Positions 37,337-45,759 of a stretch of DNA of 64,000 nt are shown here, piece after piece. Position 1 is the first letter of the stretch. Every line of letters starts with the position of its first letter. The position numbers and the translations under genes were made by a program. The notes beneath the pieces are model-generated. The model was not told the origin of the DNA. It did not search any database and saw nothing but the letters and a program-made list of their open reading frames with translations. Source of the DNA: Mycolicibacterium lutetiense (lineage in GTDB: Bacteria > Actinomycetota > Actinomycetes > Mycobacteriales > Mycobacteriaceae); contig NZ_JAGIOP010000002.1 of NCBI RefSeq assembly GCF_017876775.1, forward strand, positions 1,922,001 to 1,986,000, given 5' to 3'.

Positions 37337-38938
37337 TCACCCGGGCGCCTTCTTGCTTGCGGGATCAAGCCCGAAAACCTTCACCTCGGCTGCCTTGCCT
37401 TTCACGGCATGTCTTCCCCGGTCGGCCAGTCCGGTCGGACGAGACACCAAGGCGTCCAACGTCTGCTGGGTGAGCAAGATCGCGTCGCCTGTGGTCTTGG
37501 TGAGCTGTTCGACACGGGCGGCCACATTGACGGTGTCACCGATCAGCGTGAATTCAAGCTTGCCTCCGCCGCCGATGGTGCCCGCGATCACCACACCGGT
37601 ATTGATGCCGATCCCGATCCGAAGGCCACCGTCGAATCGTTCGCCGACGATCCGCTGAATCGTCACGGCGGCGCTCACCGCCGCATCGGCATGGTGCGCA
37701 AGGTCATTCGGGGCACCAAAGACCGCCAATGCACCGTCGCCGAGGAACTTGTTCACGTGCCCGCCGGCATCGACGACCGCAGGCACCACGATCTCGAACA
37801 GCGCATTGAGCTGGGCAACGGTGTCCTCGGCACTGTTGGCCTCGGCGAACGGTGTGAAATCGCGGACGTCGACGAACGCGACCGTCACCTCACGACGCTC
37901 ACCGGCGAACACATCGTCACCCTGCTCAAGCAGCCGTGCCGCCAAAGCCGGGTCGACATACGTCCCGAATGCCGCTTGGAGGCGTTGCCGCTCGGCCAGT
38001 CCCGCCTGCATTCGGTTGAACGAAGCCGACAGGGCTCCCAGATCGTCGTCCTGAACCACCGGCAGACGTTGGCTGTAGTCACCGACGGCAACCCGATCGG
38101 TCCCCTCGGCGAGATCGCGGATCGGTCGCAAGAAGGGCGAGATCGTCATGACCGCGACCGGCCCGGCAATCAGCATCAATGCGCACCCGATGACCACGGA
38201 CACGACGGGATCCTCGCGGGCGCGATCGATCACGGACGCTGTGAGCGCGGCCCCGGTGGCGAATGCCAACGCCATCGCGAGCATGGTGATGTTGGACCAC
38301 GTGGCAAAAGTCGGGTGCGAGCGCGGTAGCGCGTCGCCGATTCCCGTGTCACCGGCGATGGCGGTCCGCACCGGCCGCAGCGATCCCTCACTGAAGCTGT
38401 GCACACCGAACACCCCGACGGCCACTCCGTACACGGCACCGACAACCCCGTACTGGACCAGCCTCCCCCCGGTCGCCCCGACCATCGCGGCGACAACGAC
38501 GCCCAGGCACGGGGCCCACACCACATCGGTCGCCAGCACTCGGGCCGTCGTCCTCCGCCCGTAGCTGAAGGTGGCGCGGAGCACCTCCATCGGATCGACC
38601 TCGTGCCCTGCTGCCCACTTTTCAATCAGGCGCAACGGCTTCGAGCCGGGCAGAACCAATAGGTAAACGCGCACCAGCATGGCGACACAGCCGATGACGG
38701 CCGCCTCGACGTAGCGGTCGGACCCCTCGAAGGCGACGATGAGCAACGGGTAGGCGAGGTATACCGACAGCCCCGCGGCGTATACCAGCGCGCAGACCGC
38801 CCACGAATACACCGGTCCGTACCGATCCCACACCCATTGAAAGATCCGGTCCATGTCGAAACAAAACACCCGCGGGCTGGTGCCCGGCGGTGTTTTCCGC
38901 TCCACAGCCTGTAACTCGCTCGGCGGGCGGGACGACAT
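37337..38938 (-). CDS. membrane-bound class III adenylate/guanylate cyclase with HAMP domain
   Basis: This is a 533-residue protein with six transmembrane helices between about residues 42 and 268. A HAMP linker (PFLRPIRDLAEGTDRVAVGDYSQRLPVVQDDDLGALSASFNRM, about 269-310) precedes the catalytic domain at about 350-520. Metal Asp357 (VAFVDVRDF) and Asp401 (NKFLGDGALAVFG) are present, with Lys397 for purine recognition, and IGDTVNVAARVEQ carries the transition-state Asn and Arg. It is of the same architecture as the M. tuberculosis Rv1318c-Rv1320c group. It should make cAMP from ATP; the input signal is unknown. Confidence 0.9.
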   Translation of the reverse strand: MSSRPPSELQAVERKTPPGTSPRVFCFDMDRIFQWVWDRYGPVYSWAVCALVYAAGLSVYLAYPLLIVAFEGSDRYVEAAVIGCVAMLVRVYLLVLPGSKPLRLIEKWAAGHEVDPMEVLRATFSYGRRTTARVLATDVVWAPCLGVVVAAMVGATGGRLVQYGVVGAVYGVAVGVFGVHSFSEGSLRPVRTAIAGDTGIGDALPRSHPTFATWSNITMLAMALAFATGAALTASVIDRAREDPVVSVVIGCALMLIAGPVAVMTISPFLRPIRDLAEGTDRVAVGDYSQRLPVVQDDDLGALSASFNRMQAGLAERQRLQAAFGTYVDPALAARLLEQGDDVFAGERREVTVAFVDVRDFTPFAEANSAEDTVAQLNALFEIVVPAVVDAGGHVNKFLGDGALAVFGAPNDLAHHADAAVSAAVTIQRIVGERFDGGLRIGIGINTGVVIAGTIGGGGKLEFTLIGDTVNVAARVEQLTKTTGDAILLTQQTLDALVSRPTGLADRGRHAVKGKAAEVKVFGLDPASKKAPG

Positions 38939-38981: not shown

Positions 38982-39524
38982 ATGCCGATGCCGAAACATT
39001 GGCCTCGTGCAGTGGCCGCGGCCGGTGCAGCCACGGCAGCACTGGCCGTCCTGACTGCCGCCCCGGCTCACGCCGGGCCGCTGCCCAGTTTCTGTGTGCC
39101 GTCCAACCCCGTCGACAACGTCTGCACAACACGGCTGACATCCGTGACGGCCGACGTGATCGACGGCACGATCACCGGGACGCCGGTCGGCGGCGGGTCA
39201 GCAATCACCCTTGCGGGACAAGCGGATGCGTACCTGAAATCGGCCGGATTCGGTGACACACCGCCGGATCCGGTTCAAGAATGGGACGCCTCGATCGACA
39301 GGGTCGGTGACCTCGACACCTCCCCCTCCGACCCCAATTGGTACGGCAACGCCAAGGCCCGGGTGTTCCTGCCCAGGACCCTCAATGAGCTGGCCACCAA
39401 GTTTCCGCCGGACAGCATTGTGGTCCAGTTCGTAGCCGACGACACCCGGCCGGACGCACTCCGGTTGGTGTCCATTCAGCCGACCGCTACGCCCGATCCT
39501 GCGCCAGCCCGGACAGGTGCTTGA
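38982..39524 (+). CDS. secreted protein of unknown function
   Basis: This is a 180-residue protein with a clear signal peptide (WPRAVAAAGAATAALAVLTAAPAHA, cleavage after about residue 31). The mature part of about 150 residues has two Cys near its N-terminus (FCVPSNPVDNVCTT) likely forming a disulfide, and ends in a disordered Pro/Ala-rich tail. GAAAGGAG lies just upstream. It is divergent from the cyclase gene, and its stop overlaps the convergent SRPBCC gene by 38 bases. No family was recognised. Confidence 0.6.
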   Translation: MPMPKHWPRAVAAAGAATAALAVLTAAPAHAGPLPSFCVPSNPVDNVCTTRLTSVTADVIDGTITGTPVGGGSAITLAGQADAYLKSAGFGDTPPDPVQEWDASIDRVGDLDTSPSDPNWYGNAKARVFLPRTLNELATKFPPDSIVVQFVADDTRPDALRLVSIQPTATPDPAPARTGA

Positions 39525-39966
39525 GCGAGTTGTCCAGGTGTTGCCGGTCGAACGGCGGGAACTCGATCTCTTCGCGAAGCGCGGGCGGCACCGCCGACCA
39601 GTCGTACGTCAGGGTGACGTTCGTCCGGTCGTCGCCGCGCGGCTCAAGGTCATAGCGCCAGACCCAGCCGCCGAACTCGATGTTGGCATCGTCAGCGCCC
39701 TGGCCCGGCAGCCACGCAATCGCCCGCGGCGGCTCGAAAACCTCGACCCGGTTGGCCATCTCGTAGTGCATGCCGCCGTAGTTGTCGTGGTACATCGCCA
39801 TCCGGAAGATCTGGCCGACCTCGGTCAGCGGCTTGCCGTCGAGCGACTCCCGAACCCAGCCGGTGCCGTCGATCGCCTGATGGGTGGTCGGGTCGGCGAG
39901 TACCGCGAACACGGTGTCGGCCGGCGCGTTGATGGTGCATGCGGCGGTCATGGTTTCGTCAGACAT
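39487..39966 (-). CDS. SRPBCC (START-like) lipid-binding fold protein
   Basis: This is a 159-residue protein of the polyketide-cyclase/SRPBCC superfamily. The N-terminus MTAACTINAPADTVFAVLADPTTHQAIDGTGW and later FEPPRAIAWLPGQG and GWVWRYDLEPRGDDRTNVTLTYDW follow the helix-grip pattern, which encloses a hydrophobic ligand. Many mycobacterial paralogues exist with unknown ligands. It is monocistronic, convergent with the secreted protein gene. Confidence 0.8.
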   Translation of the reverse strand: MSDETMTAACTINAPADTVFAVLADPTTHQAIDGTGWVRESLDGKPLTEVGQIFRMAMYHDNYGGMHYEMANRVEVFEPPRAIAWLPGQGADDANIEFGGWVWRYDLEPRGDDRTNVTLTYDWSAVPPALREEIEFPPFDRQHLDNSLKHLSGLAQDRA

Positions 39967-40021
39967 ACCCGTACCGACCGCCGGCGGCTCAGAAACTCAT
40001 CGAGCCTGCAACCCGCGTGAA

Positions 40022-40408
40022 CTAGGGCAGCTGACCCGCCAACTCGCGCGCATAGTCAACTTCATCGCTGACATCTAGAACTGTGTCAGCGTGCGTCGCC
40101 GGAATCATCGTCGAGTGACAGAAACCGTCGCCCTGGACCGTGACCTGAATAAACCCAACCTGCCGCACGTCCTTCGCCAGCAGGAGAAGGAGCCCCAGCA
40201 GGCAGAACAAGGAACCCACGATCGCAAGAATGACCCTACTGGTCGAGAGGTGCTCTTCGGAGGTGGACAGGTCCGTGACCGACCACTCGGTTCCACGGAT
40301 CGGAAATTGGCCGATCGGCGTCGATATCCAGTACTGCGAAACAGCAATATCACCGATCGTCGTCAACCACTCGTCAGAACTATCGGCGTCGACCAAGGGC
40401 TCCCCCAT
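40022..40408 (-). CDS. single-pass membrane protein of unknown function
   Basis: This is a 128-residue protein. An N-terminal polar stretch of about 58 residues precedes one helix at about 60-80 (VILAIVGSLFCLLGLLLLLA). A C-terminal domain of about 45 residues (GFIQVTVQGDGFCHSTMIPA) ends DEVDYARELAGQLP. It looks like a short-form membrane protein in which both ends could contact partners. No family was recognised. It is divergent from the HabA-like gene at 40501. Confidence 0.55.
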   Translation of the reverse strand: MGEPLVDADSSDEWLTTIGDIAVSQYWISTPIGQFPIRGTEWSVTDLSTSEEHLSTSRVILAIVGSLFCLLGLLLLLAKDVRQVGFIQVTVQGDGFCHSTMIPATHADTVLDVSDEVDYARELAGQLP

Positions 40409-40500
40409 AACGGGCGATTAAAGCACGTGGACGCGCACTGCAGCCGCAGGTTGACGATCAATCCGAGGCGCACGCGGTCACCCGTCCCTACAGTTCTGAC

Positions 40501-40902
40501 ATGCAGACACTGCTGTTCACCCTTGGCCTGGTCCTGTTTCTGATCGGCCTGCTCACCGGGTTCGCGGTGCCGACGCTGAAAAACCCGCGAATGGCGCTGT
40601 CGAGCCACCTCGAAGCGATTCTCAACGGCATGTTCCTCGTACTACTCGGGCTGCTCTGGCCATACATCCACTTGCCACACGCTTGGGCAGTTGTGGCAGT
40701 CGTACTCATCGTGTACTCCGCCTACGCGAACTGGCTGGCGACGCTGCTCGCCGCGGCATGGGGTGCCGGCCGCAAACTCGCGCCGATCGCAGCGGCCGAC
40801 CACCAGGCCTCCACGACAAAGGAACAGATCGTCAGCTTTCTGTTGGTATCCCTCTCGGTGTCGATCGTCGTGGGCGTCGGCATCGTCATCTTCGGGCTCT
40901 GA
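40501..40902 (+). CDS. hydroxylaminobenzene mutase-like membrane protein
   Basis: This is a 133-residue protein with four transmembrane helices. The first two carry LLTGFAVPTLKNPRMALSSHLEAILNGMFLVLLGLLWPYI, the characteristic sequence of the HabA/HabB hydroxylaminobenzene mutase family. That family rearranges hydroxylaminobenzene to aminophenol in pseudomonads, but mycobacterial members have no tested role. It ends 39 bases before the terminator at 40942. Before the island arrived it was probably the convergent neighbour of groEL1. Confidence 0.7.
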   Translation: MQTLLFTLGLVLFLIGLLTGFAVPTLKNPRMALSSHLEAILNGMFLVLLGLLWPYIHLPHAWAVVAVVLIVYSAYANWLATLLAAAWGAGRKLAPIAAADHQASTTKEQIVSFLLVSLSVSIVVGVGIVIFGL

Positions 40903-40941
40903 CGACGCTCCGTCGACACAGTGACGCGTAAAAGACGAAAA

Positions 40942-40969
40942 CACCCCCGGCCCAACCGGACCGGGGGTG
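40942..40969. terminator. bidirectional terminator, probably the original groEL1 terminator
   Basis: CACCCCCGG (40942-40950) pairs with CCGGGGGTG (40961-40969). On the minus strand a T-rich run (TTTTCGTCTTTT) follows. The loop and the second arm belong to the left copy of the 78-base direct repeat. It differs in the loop from the hairpin at 44027-44052. Confidence 0.75.
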
Positions 40970-41036
40970 TTTCGCGAAACGAACTCAGTGAGCGTGGCCG
41001 TGATGGCCGTGCCCGTGATCTTCTTCCTCGGCCGGC
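40959..41036. repeat. left copy of the 78-base direct repeat (displaced groEL1 3' end)
   Basis: It is identical base for base to 44042-44119. It contains half the terminator, the palindrome GTTTCGCGAAAC (40969-40980), the groEL1 stop and the last 51 or so coding bases ([14 protein letters not shown]). It is not attached to a groEL gene here; beyond 41036 the sequence is unrelated. This is the picture left by an element that integrates in the 3' end of a gene and restores it. Confidence 0.9.
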
Positions 41037-41239
41037 CTCATGCGGCGCCAGTCGCCCGCCCCGCCTCGTGGTCGCAGTGCCTCGTGGTCAACGCGCGGCC
41101 GCTGGTCGCGGGCCCTGGTACCCCAGGGGGTATCCACCTACCCGCACTCCCCGACCGGTCGGTAATGCGGCCGCCCTATCGTGTACGGGTTTCCAAGTCT
41201 TCAGCCGTATCGAGGCAGGAGACTCCCGGGAGAGCTTGG
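41037..41239. other. left edge of the groEL1 island, no gene seen
   Basis: These 203 bases lie between the left repeat and the uL23-like gene. They contain a repeated CCTCGTGGTC (41065 and 41081 region) and the perfect palindrome TACCCCAGGGGGTA (41119-41132). No ORF with coding character was found. The region may hold half of an attachment site or the terminator of the uL23 operon. Confidence 0.45.
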
Positions 41240-41713
41240 CTAATGGCCGGCTCCGAAAATGTCGATCGCCTTCTGCCCGGGGGCTAGTGTCACGATCGCT
41301 CGCTTAGTGCTCTTGCGCTGGCCATAGCCGGTACGGGTGCGCTTGCGTTTGCCACTGCGGTTAAGTGTGTTCACCGAAGCGACCTTGACACTGAAGATCT
41401 TCTCGACCGCAATCTTGATCTGCGTTTTGTTCGACTTCGGGTGCACGACGAACGTGTACACGTTGTCCTCAATCAGCGAGTACGACTTCTCTGAAACCAC
41501 TGGAGCCAAAATGATGTCGCGGGGGTCGGGTGCTATTGCTATGCCGGTTGGCCCCTCTATGCCTGGGCCTGGGCCTGGCGGGGTGCCCCATGGCGGTTTC
41601 TTCCCAGGATTCGGCCCTGGCGGCGGAGTCGTGGGCGGCGGCGTAGGCGACCTAGGCGGCAACCTCTTACCTCTCACCGTTCCCCCGCTGATTGTTTTGT
41701 CAGATTCAGACAT
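41240..41713 (-). CDS. ribosomal protein uL23 paralogue with proline-rich N-terminal extension
   Basis: This is 157 residues from ATG 41713. Residues about 63-157 are a complete uL23: [40 protein letters not shown], and the rRNA-binding loop [20 protein letters not shown], ending in a C-terminal [14 protein letters not shown]. Glu75 in VSEKS matches the uL23 glutamate that docks trigger factor and SRP at the exit tunnel. Residues 1-60 are not ribosomal; they are Pro/Gly-rich ([20 protein letters not shown]). Neither rplD nor rplB adjoins it, so it is not the S10-operon copy. It overlaps the upstream membrane-protein gene as TAATG. The frame is intact and conserved, so it is probably functional. 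Confidence 0.88.
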
Positions 41714-42381
41714 TATTGAGTCGGGTTCACCTGTGTCCAAACAAGGGCAATCCAGATACCCAGCTGGAGTGCGCCAGTCCCGATCGCCGAAAAATAAATC
41801 CAACGAGCTTCGTTGAGGATCTTAATGTTCTTTTCGATATACCCGCCGTAGTACCAAGCTAAGTCATAGTACAGATGAGCCTCGGTATCGGTCGGGGACA
41901 CGTCGCGCAGTATGCCGTCCAGAATGTCTCGCGAACGCGAGACCACCGTGAGCTTAGTCTTGTTGGGAAACAACAGAATTAGTGTCAGTACCAACGTCAA
42001 ACCCAGTGTTATGGTGCCCGCGCCACACAGGATGTAGAAATCGAGCCCCCTATTGACCGCTGCCACCCCCTCCGAAGGACGCAAGGCGGTACCGACCAGG
42101 AATGCGGTAGCAGTTCCTGCGAAAGCTAAGAACTGCACAAGGCGCTGCCGAATCGCCGACAGTTCTTCGCTCTGTTGCTTCAGAGTGCGGACGGCTTCGT
42201 CGAACGCGATCTTGTAGAGCTTTGCCGATTCGTCCGTCTCTTTTTGGGCGGCCCTGCTCTGTTGGGCAAGCATTGCCGCCTGCGCGTTATCTGCCCCTGA
42301 AGGAGGTTGGCGTAGGCCAAGAATTCGACCGATGGAACGTCTCTGCTTTGGGTTTGGGCGGGGACCTATCTGGTGCGTCAT
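41713..42381 (-). CDS. three-helix membrane protein coupled to the uL23 paralogue
   Basis: This is a 222-residue protein. A basic, disordered start ([20 protein letters not shown]) and coiled coil (about 35-80) lead to helices at about 81-100, 114-138 and 194-215. Between helices 2 and 3 is a cytoplasmic segment (about 140-190) with [18 protein letters not shown] and [15 protein letters not shown]. The paired helices recall SLATT-type effector proteins, but I could not confirm a family. Its TAA overlaps the ATG of the uL23 paralogue, so they are translated together. A ribosome site AGAGG precedes the start. Confidence 0.65.
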
Positions 42382-42791
42382 CTGCGACCCTCTTCTAGGG
42401 GGACGTACACCCTAAATTGTAGATTCGCAACTTGAACGAGAACTGAAAACCTGGCTTGATCATGCATTATGCCGCTCCCAAGCTCAAGAAAACATCTCCC
42501 AACCACCGTTGGTTGCCCGGTTGACAGTGACAGTAACCAAAATGTGACCGTACCGCTGGATACACGCTGGTCCAGACCCATTCTTTCTTCAACTAGTTCC
42601 GGTGCACGGCACTCGGATTCCGAGTCCGCCCCAAGCGCCGCGAGTTCAGTCGCGCGGACAGCTCGACATCTGGCGAGCAAGCAGTCCAGACAGGCGGCGA
42701 CGCAGACGCTGCTGATGCAGCCCGTGGGCTGCATTGGACGAAGTGTTTCCTAGCGCACGAGTTGGGCCGACTCTCGACGCTGGCAGACGTG
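42382..42791. other. promoter region of the membrane/uL23 operon; no gene seen
   Basis: On the minus strand, TACAAT (42421-42416) is a plausible -10 about 35 bases before the 42381 start. The rest (42430-42790) is unusually AT-rich for this genome and shows only short reading frames without coding character. It also serves as the 3' flank of the DUF2510 gene. Confidence 0.45.
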
Positions 42792-43199
42792 CTACTGGTC
42801 AAACATGCGCGAGATCTCGTTTCGCTTGTCCGACATCTCATTCTCGATGTAGATGGCGTTCACCAGAGCGAGCGCCAGCAGCACAGCCGCGACGATGCGT
42901 ACCCACCTCGCAGCACCCAGGAAGAAGGCGACAGCCGTACCGGCAGCCACGACGGCGACCCCGGTCCACACCGGACCCGATCCCGTCAGGAGGCTCACCG
43001 ATTGCATCGACATCACAAGCCCGATAACGACGAGCACGCAGACGCCGGCGGCAACAGCGGCTCGCTTGCCTTTGTTGGCGTTTTCCGTCGCGGTGGGTGT
43101 CGACGCTGGCCCAATCCACGCAGAGCCGTTCCAGTAGATCCGATTTCCGGCGTCAGACGGATCGGGATACCAACCCGGCGCGGGTTGCGGAGCGTTCAT
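42792..43199 (-). CDS. DUF2510 membrane protein
   Basis: This is a 135-residue protein. The DUF2510 motif is at the N-terminus (PAPGWYPDPSDAGNRIYWNGSAWIG, about residues 7-31). A linker and three helices follow at about 47-66, 78-97 and 100-118, then a charged tail (NEMSDKRNEISRMFDQ). DUF2510 is a small Trp-rich domain found in many actinobacterial membrane proteins, of unknown role. It lies inside the groEL1 island on the same strand as the uL23 pair. Confidence 0.75.
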   Translation of the reverse strand: MNAPQPAPGWYPDPSDAGNRIYWNGSAWIGPASTPTATENANKGKRAAVAAGVCVLVVIGLVMSMQSVSLLTGSGPVWTGVAVVAAGTAVAFFLGAARWVRIVAAVLLALALVNAIYIENEMSDKRNEISRMFDQ

Positions 43200-43681
43200 C
43201 GTGGGACCCCTTCTCTCAGACTGACGAGAGCGTAGACCCGCAGGGCGACAAGCTCAGGCCGATTATCTGGAATCGTCATGTTGAAAGGAGGCAAAGGCCG
43301 CCAAGCCCCGCTACCAGAGAACTCCGACATCGCTCGTGCCGATTTGCGGCGTGTCGTGCATGAATGTGTTTACATGTGGCGCATGATGAATGGCTTAGCT
43401 AATGATTCTCTGAGAATTCCATCGATGGGATTCCTACCCCTGGGTGTTGTCGTGACGCCGGGGTAAACTCGGCTAACGCAGCAAGCCCCAGGTCCGAATC
43501 CTGGGGAGGTTCCGGGCTCTGAGGCTTGTGCTTTTCTACGTGGTGGTAGGTAGCCAAACTATCAGGATTACGTGCGTTCCGTGTAATTACGCGGGTACGC
43601 CGTGACCGAAACTTAACCTTGCCCGCGTTACCGAGTCGCGTCACAATGGCGCGATTCTTTAACACAGGAAGAGGTACCACG
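43200..43681. other. gene-free part of the island with a tRNA T-arm-like hairpin
   Basis: No convincing gene was found in these 482 bases; a 62-codon frame at 43278 has no ribosome site or family. At 43486-43506 CCCCAGG-TCCGAAT-CCTGGGG is a perfect 7-bp stem with a loop that matches a tRNA T-loop except for one base (GTCCGAATC for GTTCGAATC). Upstream sequence does not fold into a tRNA, so it is a remnant or an unrelated hairpin. Confidence 0.4.
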
Positions 43682-43999
43682 GTGTACTTCGTCGTTGGAA
43701 ACGATACTGCCGGCAAGCCCACATGGTGGCTGTACAGCGGGAACCACAAGATGGTGGCGTGGGCCGGCGAGACGTTCTCGTCAACCGCAGCGGCAAAGAC
43801 TGCCGCCATCTCGTTCAGGGTGGGCGCTCGGACTGCTCGCTACGACGTCTACCAGGACTTCGGTAGCAACTGGCGCTGGCGCGCTTGGCGGTCGAGCGAC
43901 AAGGTGGCAGCGTCGGGCGAGTCGTTCTACAGCCAGTTCGAAGCTCAGCGGGCAGCTGACAACGTCCGCGACAACGCGGGCGGCGCGACCGGCCCGTAA
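43682..43999 (+). CDS. double DUF1508 (YegP-like) protein
   Basis: This is 105 residues from GTG 43682, with GGAAGAGG 6 bases upstream; ATG 43646 in frame would add 12 residues. Two tandem DUF1508 repeats are seen: VYFVVGNDTAGKPTWWLYSGNHKMVAWAGETFSSTAAAKTAAISF, and YDVYQDFGSNWRWRAWRSSDKVAASGESFYSQFEAQRAADNVR. The fold is a small alpha/beta unit like E. coli YegP, of unknown function. It is the only rightward gene of the island and ends just before the groEL1 terminator. Confidence 0.75.
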   Translation: MYFVVGNDTAGKPTWWLYSGNHKMVAWAGETFSSTAAAKTAAISFRVGARTARYDVYQDFGSNWRWRAWRSSDKVAASGESFYSQFEAQRAADNVRDNAGGATGP

Positions 44000-44026
44000 C
44001 GGCACAGCTGTCCAGATCAACGAAAG

Positions 44027-44041
44027 CACCCCCGGCCAAAT

Positions 44042-44052
<11 letters not shown>
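44027..44052. terminator. bidirectional terminator between DUF1508 gene and groEL1
   Basis: CACCCCCGG (44027-44035) pairs with CCGGGGGTG (44044-44052), with an 8-base loop CCAAATGA. T-rich sequence follows in both directions (TTTCG rightward, CTTTCG leftward). Its second arm belongs to the right copy of the 78-base repeat. Confidence 0.75.

Positions 44053-45759
<1,707 letters not shown>

Follow-up and report, generated by a model that had tools for sequence, protein, structure and literature searches.

Why would a small mobile island in a mycobacterial chromosome carry a second gene for the ribosomal protein uL23, extended at its N terminus by a proline-rich arm? The preliminary description of this locus, which lies in a window of 64,000 nucleotides (the whole stretch of DNA analysed here), had proposed that such a protein could replace the housekeeping copy in some ribosomes, tether ribosomes or act as a decoy. 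We identified a coupled membrane-protein gene, absent from that description, whose homologues elsewhere are accompanied by similarly armed copies of other housekeeping proteins. With confidence and doubt evenly balanced, we propose a two-gene integrated-decoy system with a membrane effector, in which the armed uL23 acts as the exchangeable sensor component. The fuller version of this proposal, to which we give somewhat less than even credence, is a bacterial integrated-decoy immunity, in which a membrane killer is combined with a proline-rich adaptor that carries swapped, phage-targeted host proteins, here on a 3-kb cos-bearing satellite in groEL1. The features of the locus are collected in Table 1.

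Table 1. Features of the armed uL23 locus, in window coordinates
Feature	Position	Strand	Description and basis
Direct repeat, left copy	40959..41036		Displaced groEL1 3' end
Sequence like the joined genome ends (cos) of cluster-A-type mycobacteriophages	41117..41199	+	Noncoding; resemblance only
Armed uL23 gene	41240..41713	-	157 aa; ORF, Pfam, NCBIfam, solved-structure alignment
uL23 domain, fusion residues 61-157	41243..41533	-	Pfam, solved uL23 chains, alignment
Pro/Gly-rich arm, fusion residues 1-60	41534..41713	-	Composition, low pLDDT, arm ending common to P0010
Membrane protein gene	41713..42381	-	222 aa; TM-like segments 81-99, 117-135 and 197-215; constant partner of armed proteins
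ORF that may not be a gene	42378..42734	-	118 aa; ORF list only
DUF2510 small protein, island cargo	42792..43199	-	Pfam
DUF1508 (YegP-like) small protein, island cargo	43619..43999	+	Pfam
Direct repeat, right copy	44042..44119		groEL1 3' end and sequence past its stop; empty site in G020
groEL1 (chaperonin)	44068..45687	-	Integration at its 3' end; open frame unbroken

The preliminary description had read this gene as a second uL23 with a complete C-terminal ribosomal part behind a proline-rich extension, and each of our comparisons agrees with it. Pfam Ribosomal_L23 covers residues 66-149 (E 1e-31; 109.6 bits, cutoff 30.8), the NCBIfam model L23 NF004364 is passed with 170.6 bits (cutoff 117), and the uL23 chains of solved mycobacterial ribosomes align to residues 60-155 (best E 1.2e-47); with a complete Ribosomal_L23 domain above the cutoff, the island copy belongs to the uL23 family. 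Glu75, which we take to be the residue on which trigger factor and SRP dock (Glu18 in E. coli), is invariant in all six rows of the alignment (A9). The first 60 residues, the arm, consist of 30% proline and 18% glycine, and in an AlphaFold2 model built from six sequences only (mean pLDDT 68) they form coil (pLDDT 42-60 per block), with the uL23 blocks at 69-89 and the last block at 55. A longer, TTG-started frame from position 41803 is also open for this ORF. The protein entry P0009, from the same contig, takes a codon inside the gene, ATA in the window, as the start of the island uL23 and gives a 100-residue L23, and the arm is therefore missed by that annotation.

The genome of the window (6.35 Mb, three contigs) also contains the normal rplW, located in the S10 operon (G000:C2:2082685-2082978) between the reading frames of rplB and rplD (gene names by eye), about 119 kb from the armed gene, so the caveat of the preliminary description, that the island gene might be the only copy, does not apply. 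The island copy, which lies outside the S10 operon and has a 60-residue arm, is not the housekeeping rplW. A further armed uL23 was found in the entry P0010; its arm and that of the window copy have the same ending, PPGxGPGIxGPT, and both proteins share residues that are absent from the native proteins compared. Because of this common ending and these residue changes, the two armed uL23 proteins probably descend from one armed ancestor. P0010 probably forms one more pair with the membrane-protein homologue P0003, since both entries report the same contig size, 5,817.

The gene had further been placed on a mobile island, and its boundaries can be given precisely: a perfect 78-bp direct repeat marks an insertion of 3,083 bp at the groEL1 3' end, and the relative G020 has the corresponding empty site, in which window positions 39460-41036 and 44020-45617 align, at 93%, to overlapping parts of one continuous stretch. 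An att-like repeat combined with absence from a relative is a property expected of a satellite. The GC content is 59.3% in 41037-44041 vs 66.7% for the window. When 100 relatives were searched for the repeat, 29 matched, with two near-perfect copies in the window's genome only and two short partial matches in G024. A long repeat that restores a gene end is the trace expected of a tyrosine integrase. Of the six island ORFs, two are doubtful and the others encode the armed uL23, the membrane protein and the DUF2510 and DUF1508 proteins; Pfam and PHROGs revealed no integrase or replication gene among the six, and the 118-aa ORF has no Pfam, PADLOC or PHROG match. Bxb1 enters groEL1 by means of a serine integrase (PMC2884959). 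The DUF2510 gene is about 72% identical at the DNA level to DUF2510 genes on five mycobacterial plasmid records, which include records of M. ulcerans and M. pseudoshottsii.

In the sequence TAATG, the start codon of the armed uL23 gene overlaps the stop codon of the membrane gene. In the structure model of the membrane protein (mean pLDDT 84, pTM 0.72), long helices span residues 32-99, 113-137 and 167-218, and from the distribution of charge, the N terminus and the region 140-195 would be cytoplasmic. A first search returned eight homologous entries, including the protein itself, and a profile search 120; in the resulting alignment of 104 rows (A5), 24 columns are invariant (3) or nearly invariant (21). 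The protein stays below the thresholds of Pfam, PADLOC and NCBIfam. PADLOC Mem_02, a TM protein with a further domain, resembles the family, matching 9 of 15 of its members weakly, with a best E of only 0.0015. Two homologues, P0081 and P0083, carry a precomputed PF18967 (PycTM) annotation; upon rescanning, P0081 reached 15.2 bits against a cutoff of 27.2 and P0083 gave no match, and PycTM had no match at E up to 1 in the 15 members of alignment A4, so that the family stays below the curated PF18967 cutoff. PycTM is likewise a small membrane protein, which is described as disrupting the membrane in abortive infection (PMC11224242). The Pycsar system to which it belongs uses a cyclase, whereas Pfam detects none among the island proteins, and the partner of the membrane protein here is an armed housekeeping protein. 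A HAMP-Guanylate_cyc gene (37337-38938; Pfam E 2.8e-21) does occur in the window but stands outside the insertion, about 2 kb beyond the left repeat; since a similar stretch (65%) adjoins groEL1 in the relative G021, this gene is probably part of the old chromosome.

The membrane protein family is rare, which limits the sample available for comparison. Close matches were found in 2 of 297 genomes of the genus (3 when all matches at E up to 0.001 are counted), and in six further samples, which overlap, the close matches (the figure in brackets counts every match at E up to 0.001) numbered 3 (8) of 397, 2 (5) of 394, 3 (7) of 396, 1 (1) of 59, 1 (1) of 37 and 1 (3) of 112 genomes, with the window's own genome included in the samples of 297, 397, 394 and 396. 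Searches by tblastn with three family members gave no match for the membrane gene in 72,556 plasmid and 50,697 phage records, and scans of viral contigs gave a single locus (L020). A scan of the genome contigs with the single protein returned nothing, and a scan with the alignment yielded the loci L003-L007 from 59 pattern matches; one of these, L007, is a partial match without a visible armed partner and was set aside, as were L010 and L017, which look unrelated by eye.

We compared nine loci with a close membrane homologue (the window, L003, L004, L005, L006, L012/L021, L013/L022, L031 and L020), where close means a tblastn E of 1e-18 or better or a profile E of 1e-40 or better, a cut that falls in a gap of the scores (160.9 to 89.9 bits in one sample) and was set after the partners were known. 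At all nine, the membrane gene is accompanied on the same strand by a protein with a proline-containing arm, either overlapping it or within about 90 bp downstream, and at eight the arm comes with a housekeeping protein that can be recognised. These proteins come from seven families: uL23, uL10, bL12 (twice), uS2, Hsp20, bS6 and, by eye, an HBHA-like protein. Mycobacterium sp. 1245805.9 (L004) encodes an armed Hsp20 (E 2.6e-15); Williamsia sp. 1138 (L005), an armed uL10 followed by bL12; Nocardioides nematodiphilus (L006) and a genome of the same family (L012/L021), an armed bL12 each; a genome of the phylum (L031), an armed uS2 (E 4.4e-95); and Mycobacterium sp. AZCC_0083 (L003), an armed protein that we call HBHA-like by eye, without family-model support (L009, identical to L003 in its ORFs, was not counted separately). 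The eighth, from a genome of the order (L013/L022), combines an arm ORF with bS6, mutually out of frame. At the ninth locus, on the viral contig, the partner is a proline-rich protein with a TM-like stretch and without a recognised domain. The next two relatives (E 5.6e-25 and 9.8e-22) are L032, without a visible partner, and L033, with a short proline-rich partner without a housekeeping domain; with both included, a proline-rich partner is present at 10 of 11 loci and a housekeeping protein at 8 of 11.

The arms themselves are unusual in composition, with eight of the nine reaching 25% proline over 40 consecutive residues within the first 120 (17.5% in the arm of L005), a level attained by 8 of 131 gene-like ORFs from seven stretches, a control set that may include some of the armed partners. 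In the aligned pairs, the junction with the arm falls on or close to the native start codon, and arm and housekeeping domain lie in one open frame at seven of the eight loci, the exception being the bS6 locus. There, the arm ORF and the bS6 ORF overlap in different frames (L013, 845-1422, minus strand), a broken or split bait. The arrangement is modular, consisting of a constant membrane gene, an arm and an exchanged housekeeping domain. Because the same membrane gene takes uL10, bL12, uS2, bS6, Hsp20 and HBHA-like proteins too, its general function cannot be anything specific to uL23 or the peptide exit. More distant relatives have short proline-rich partners (L019, like L033) or, by hydropathy, proline-rich partners with a TM-like stretch (L014, L015 and L016), which suggests that the proline-rich part is the ancestral interface and the remainder a variable sensor; at L018, L032 and L034, no partner is visible.

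Native copies were found in every genome searched for them: native uS2 adjoins EF-Ts, native bS6 lies near SSB and bL9, and native bL12 of Nocardioides adjoins uL10. Armed and native proteins share 76.5% amino acid identity for uL23 (over 98 codons; dN/dS 0.28), 97.6% for bL12 of genome G373 (dN/dS 0.05), 92.8% for uS2 (dN/dS 0.12), 92.1% for bS6 (dN/dS 0.07) and 78.1% for bL12 of Nocardioides, where dS is saturated, so that pairwise dN/dS could be computed in four of the five pairs. Since a copy evolving freely would pull the dN/dS of its pair towards 0.5, the armed copies look constrained, with recent gene conversion as an alternative cause of the low values. Together with the frames kept open at seven of eight loci, these values disfavour a passive duplicate, the outcome that the preliminary description had set against its own proposals. 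The armed uL10 of Williamsia is identical to the native protein over the shared part. In this genome, identical 1,048-bp rplJ-rplL copies flank the cassette (L005, 1-3135), and in L021 (7079-8922) the membrane gene stands between the native and the armed rplL in a tandem arrangement, with 93.75% DNA identity between the rplL copies; the native gene directly upstream of the cassette at both loci hints at the manner in which baits are captured. The Williamsia genome contains four exact rplL copies on three contigs.

Ten chosen neighbouring proteins from four loci (L003, L004, L006 and L031) were scanned for defence functions. Around the armed bL12 of Nocardioides, the neighbours comprise SoFic, a PDC-S28 helicase, PDC-S31 (DUF2971), RelA/SpoT (PDC-S33) and NERD genes, and a type I methyltransferase lies about 2 kb upstream of the armed uS2 pair; these are two clear defence neighbourhoods. 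A WD40-AAA protein at L003 has a weak PADLOC match only (E 0.0049), and the one neighbour scanned at L004 has no match. The stretch 1544-11384 of L006, around the armed bL12 pair, is a dense defence island.

The anti-phage function that we propose is inferred from the mobility of the unit, these two neighbourhoods and the weak PycTM-like resemblance of the membrane protein. The arm would dock on the membrane protein, and the housekeeping domain would serve as bait, attracting a phage (or toxin) factor that acts on the native protein by binding, modification or cleavage. Once the bait is struck, the membrane protein would be released or rearranged, and the freed protein could depolarise the membrane, a PycTM-like execution step by which the infected cell would be halted. 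In the window, the unit would ride on a very small satellite or prophage remnant that bears a cos-like sequence. A host-copy bait that varies beside a constant partner is the mark of an integrated decoy, and this pattern is seen at eight loci with seven families (HBHA-like by eye). Attack of phages on ribosomal proteins is known, for example by enzymes of T4 and T7; we know of no phage factor that hits the baits found here.

Several other functions would account for part of these observations. The arm and membrane protein might, in certain conditions, hold ribosomes or proteins associated with them at the membrane, as in the tether suggested earlier. Such an anchor predicts that most partners are ribosomal, as five of the seven families are, and a coiled arm on a membrane-bound partner, together with the ribosomal sequence retained in the armed uL23, would suit it; yet neither Hsp20 nor the protein called HBHA-like by eye is ribosomal, the sites occupied by the ribosomal partners are unrelated, as judged from knowledge of the ribosome structure, and the distribution is patchy and mobile. 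We regard the anchor as unlikely. Of the three roles first proposed for the armed uL23, replacement has fared worst. An armed copy that enters ribosomes and confers resistance to phage or toxin factors would be consistent with the complete uL23 and its docking Glu, and phage-encoded bS21 and bL12 have been reported to enter ribosomes (PMC6375957), but it would leave the membrane partner without a role, the non-ribosomal partners, Hsp20 and HBHA-like, unexplained, and the presence of an arm on each partner unaccounted for, which makes it very improbable. The decoy, the third of these roles, offers the best fit once the relatives are compared.

There are two further explanations. A cassette of membrane gene and arm could repeatedly land beside highly expressed genes and duplicate them, the armed copy being a by-product that serves expression or homologous integration. 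The flanking rplJ-rplL copies of L005 and the native rplL just upstream in L021 are what such landings would leave, whereas no second copy is present within the fetched stretch at L003, L004, L006, L022 and L031, and the native rplW of the window is far away. Moreover, the armed copies have diverged and nevertheless remain in frame at nearly all loci and look constrained in the four measurable pairs, and the two armed uL23 genes probably share an armed ancestor, all of which renders capture as a mere by-product slightly more doubtful than the anchor. Alternatively, the membrane protein could be a toxin and the armed protein its neutraliser, with the housekeeping domain only stabilising or dosing the antitoxin. 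Overlapping or closely spaced genes, a small membrane protein and, in the window, location on an island are in line with a toxin-antitoxin pair, which offers no reason for a host-protein domain that changes between loci; we rate it a little more doubtful still.

The integrated-decoy reading has its closest parallel in plants, where NLR receptors with integrated decoys (NLR-ID) carry a spare host target domain, fused to the receptor as bait, that varies between loci. The logic of the bait would be the same in the two-gene unit, which differs in being bacterial, in lacking an NLR or STAND protein, and in presenting a whole housekeeping protein on a proline-rich arm beside a separate membrane protein. 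In bacteria, a decoy role has been proposed for inactive enzyme domains and a pore-forming effector role for 2TM SLATT proteins, and some vWA proteins of bacteroidetes contain L12/ClpS-domain insertions (Kaur et al. 2020, PMC7159879). Those systems are vWA-MoxR, GTPase and similar NTP-dependent ones, and the accessible part of that paper does not describe a constant membrane gene whose partners are entire, exchangeable housekeeping proteins borne on a proline-rich arm. Ribosomal proteins encoded by phages, bL12 and bS6 among them, are mobile spares as well (PMC6375957); the terms uL23 and uS2 are absent from that source, and neither arm nor membrane partner appears in the available portion. 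No description of a membrane protein paired with an armed housekeeping protein was found among the titles and abstract openings listed from the literature searched, a scope outside which most subscription papers and preprints fall. If the integrated-decoy reading is correct, bacteria use the trick of plant immune receptors, taking entire housekeeping proteins as bait that can be exchanged, and every bait found in nature would point to a host protein attacked by phages, such targets being mostly unknown for actinobacterial phages. Even with another function, a constant membrane protein joined by seven kinds of armed housekeeping protein would be a strange gene capture, and we found none like it in the literature searched.

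The vehicle of the unit in the window can be traced further through its phage-end sequence. When the whole island was compared with phage records, three matched at E up to 1e-5, the best being MS619 (83% over 83 columns, E 4e-11), and the match of MS619, miche and MP1 spans the junction of the joined ends. We take the matching phages to be of cluster-A type, with cohesive genome ends. When the 209-bp stretch was used alone, partial matches at E up to 1, a good many of them weak, came from 595 of 50,697 phage records; of the 40 matches listed, 31 end at the last base of the record. Aligned apart, the right end of Obama12 scores 58, and the best of 500 plain shuffles reaches 26; the left end, with 26 vs 25, is unconvincing by itself. 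The pattern CCGGTCGGTWATGCGGCC, which was picked after the phage match was known, occurs once in the window, against an expectation of 0.01 with up to two mismatches. A related phage-end pattern was found at none of the other armed loci, the seven matches among 86 loci being five from the window's own genome and two phages.

With the likeness to the cos of a helper phage being one of sequence resemblance only, the island is a putative cos-bearing satellite or prophage remnant, between which we make no choice. PICMI satellites, which are minimalist and protect their hosts, bring three core proteins of their own for excision and replication (PMC10803314). PICMI and other phage satellites resemble the present element as small islands beside a gene, with phage-end sequence and possibly defensive cargo, and differ from it in that no integrase or replication gene was found on the 3.08-kb island. 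A related terminal sequence is borne by Mycolicibacterium phage Suzzy (L084; OR387120.1, 1-10875), which at only 10.9 kb has an annotated terminase, capsid, tape measure and serine integrase and looks like a satellite.
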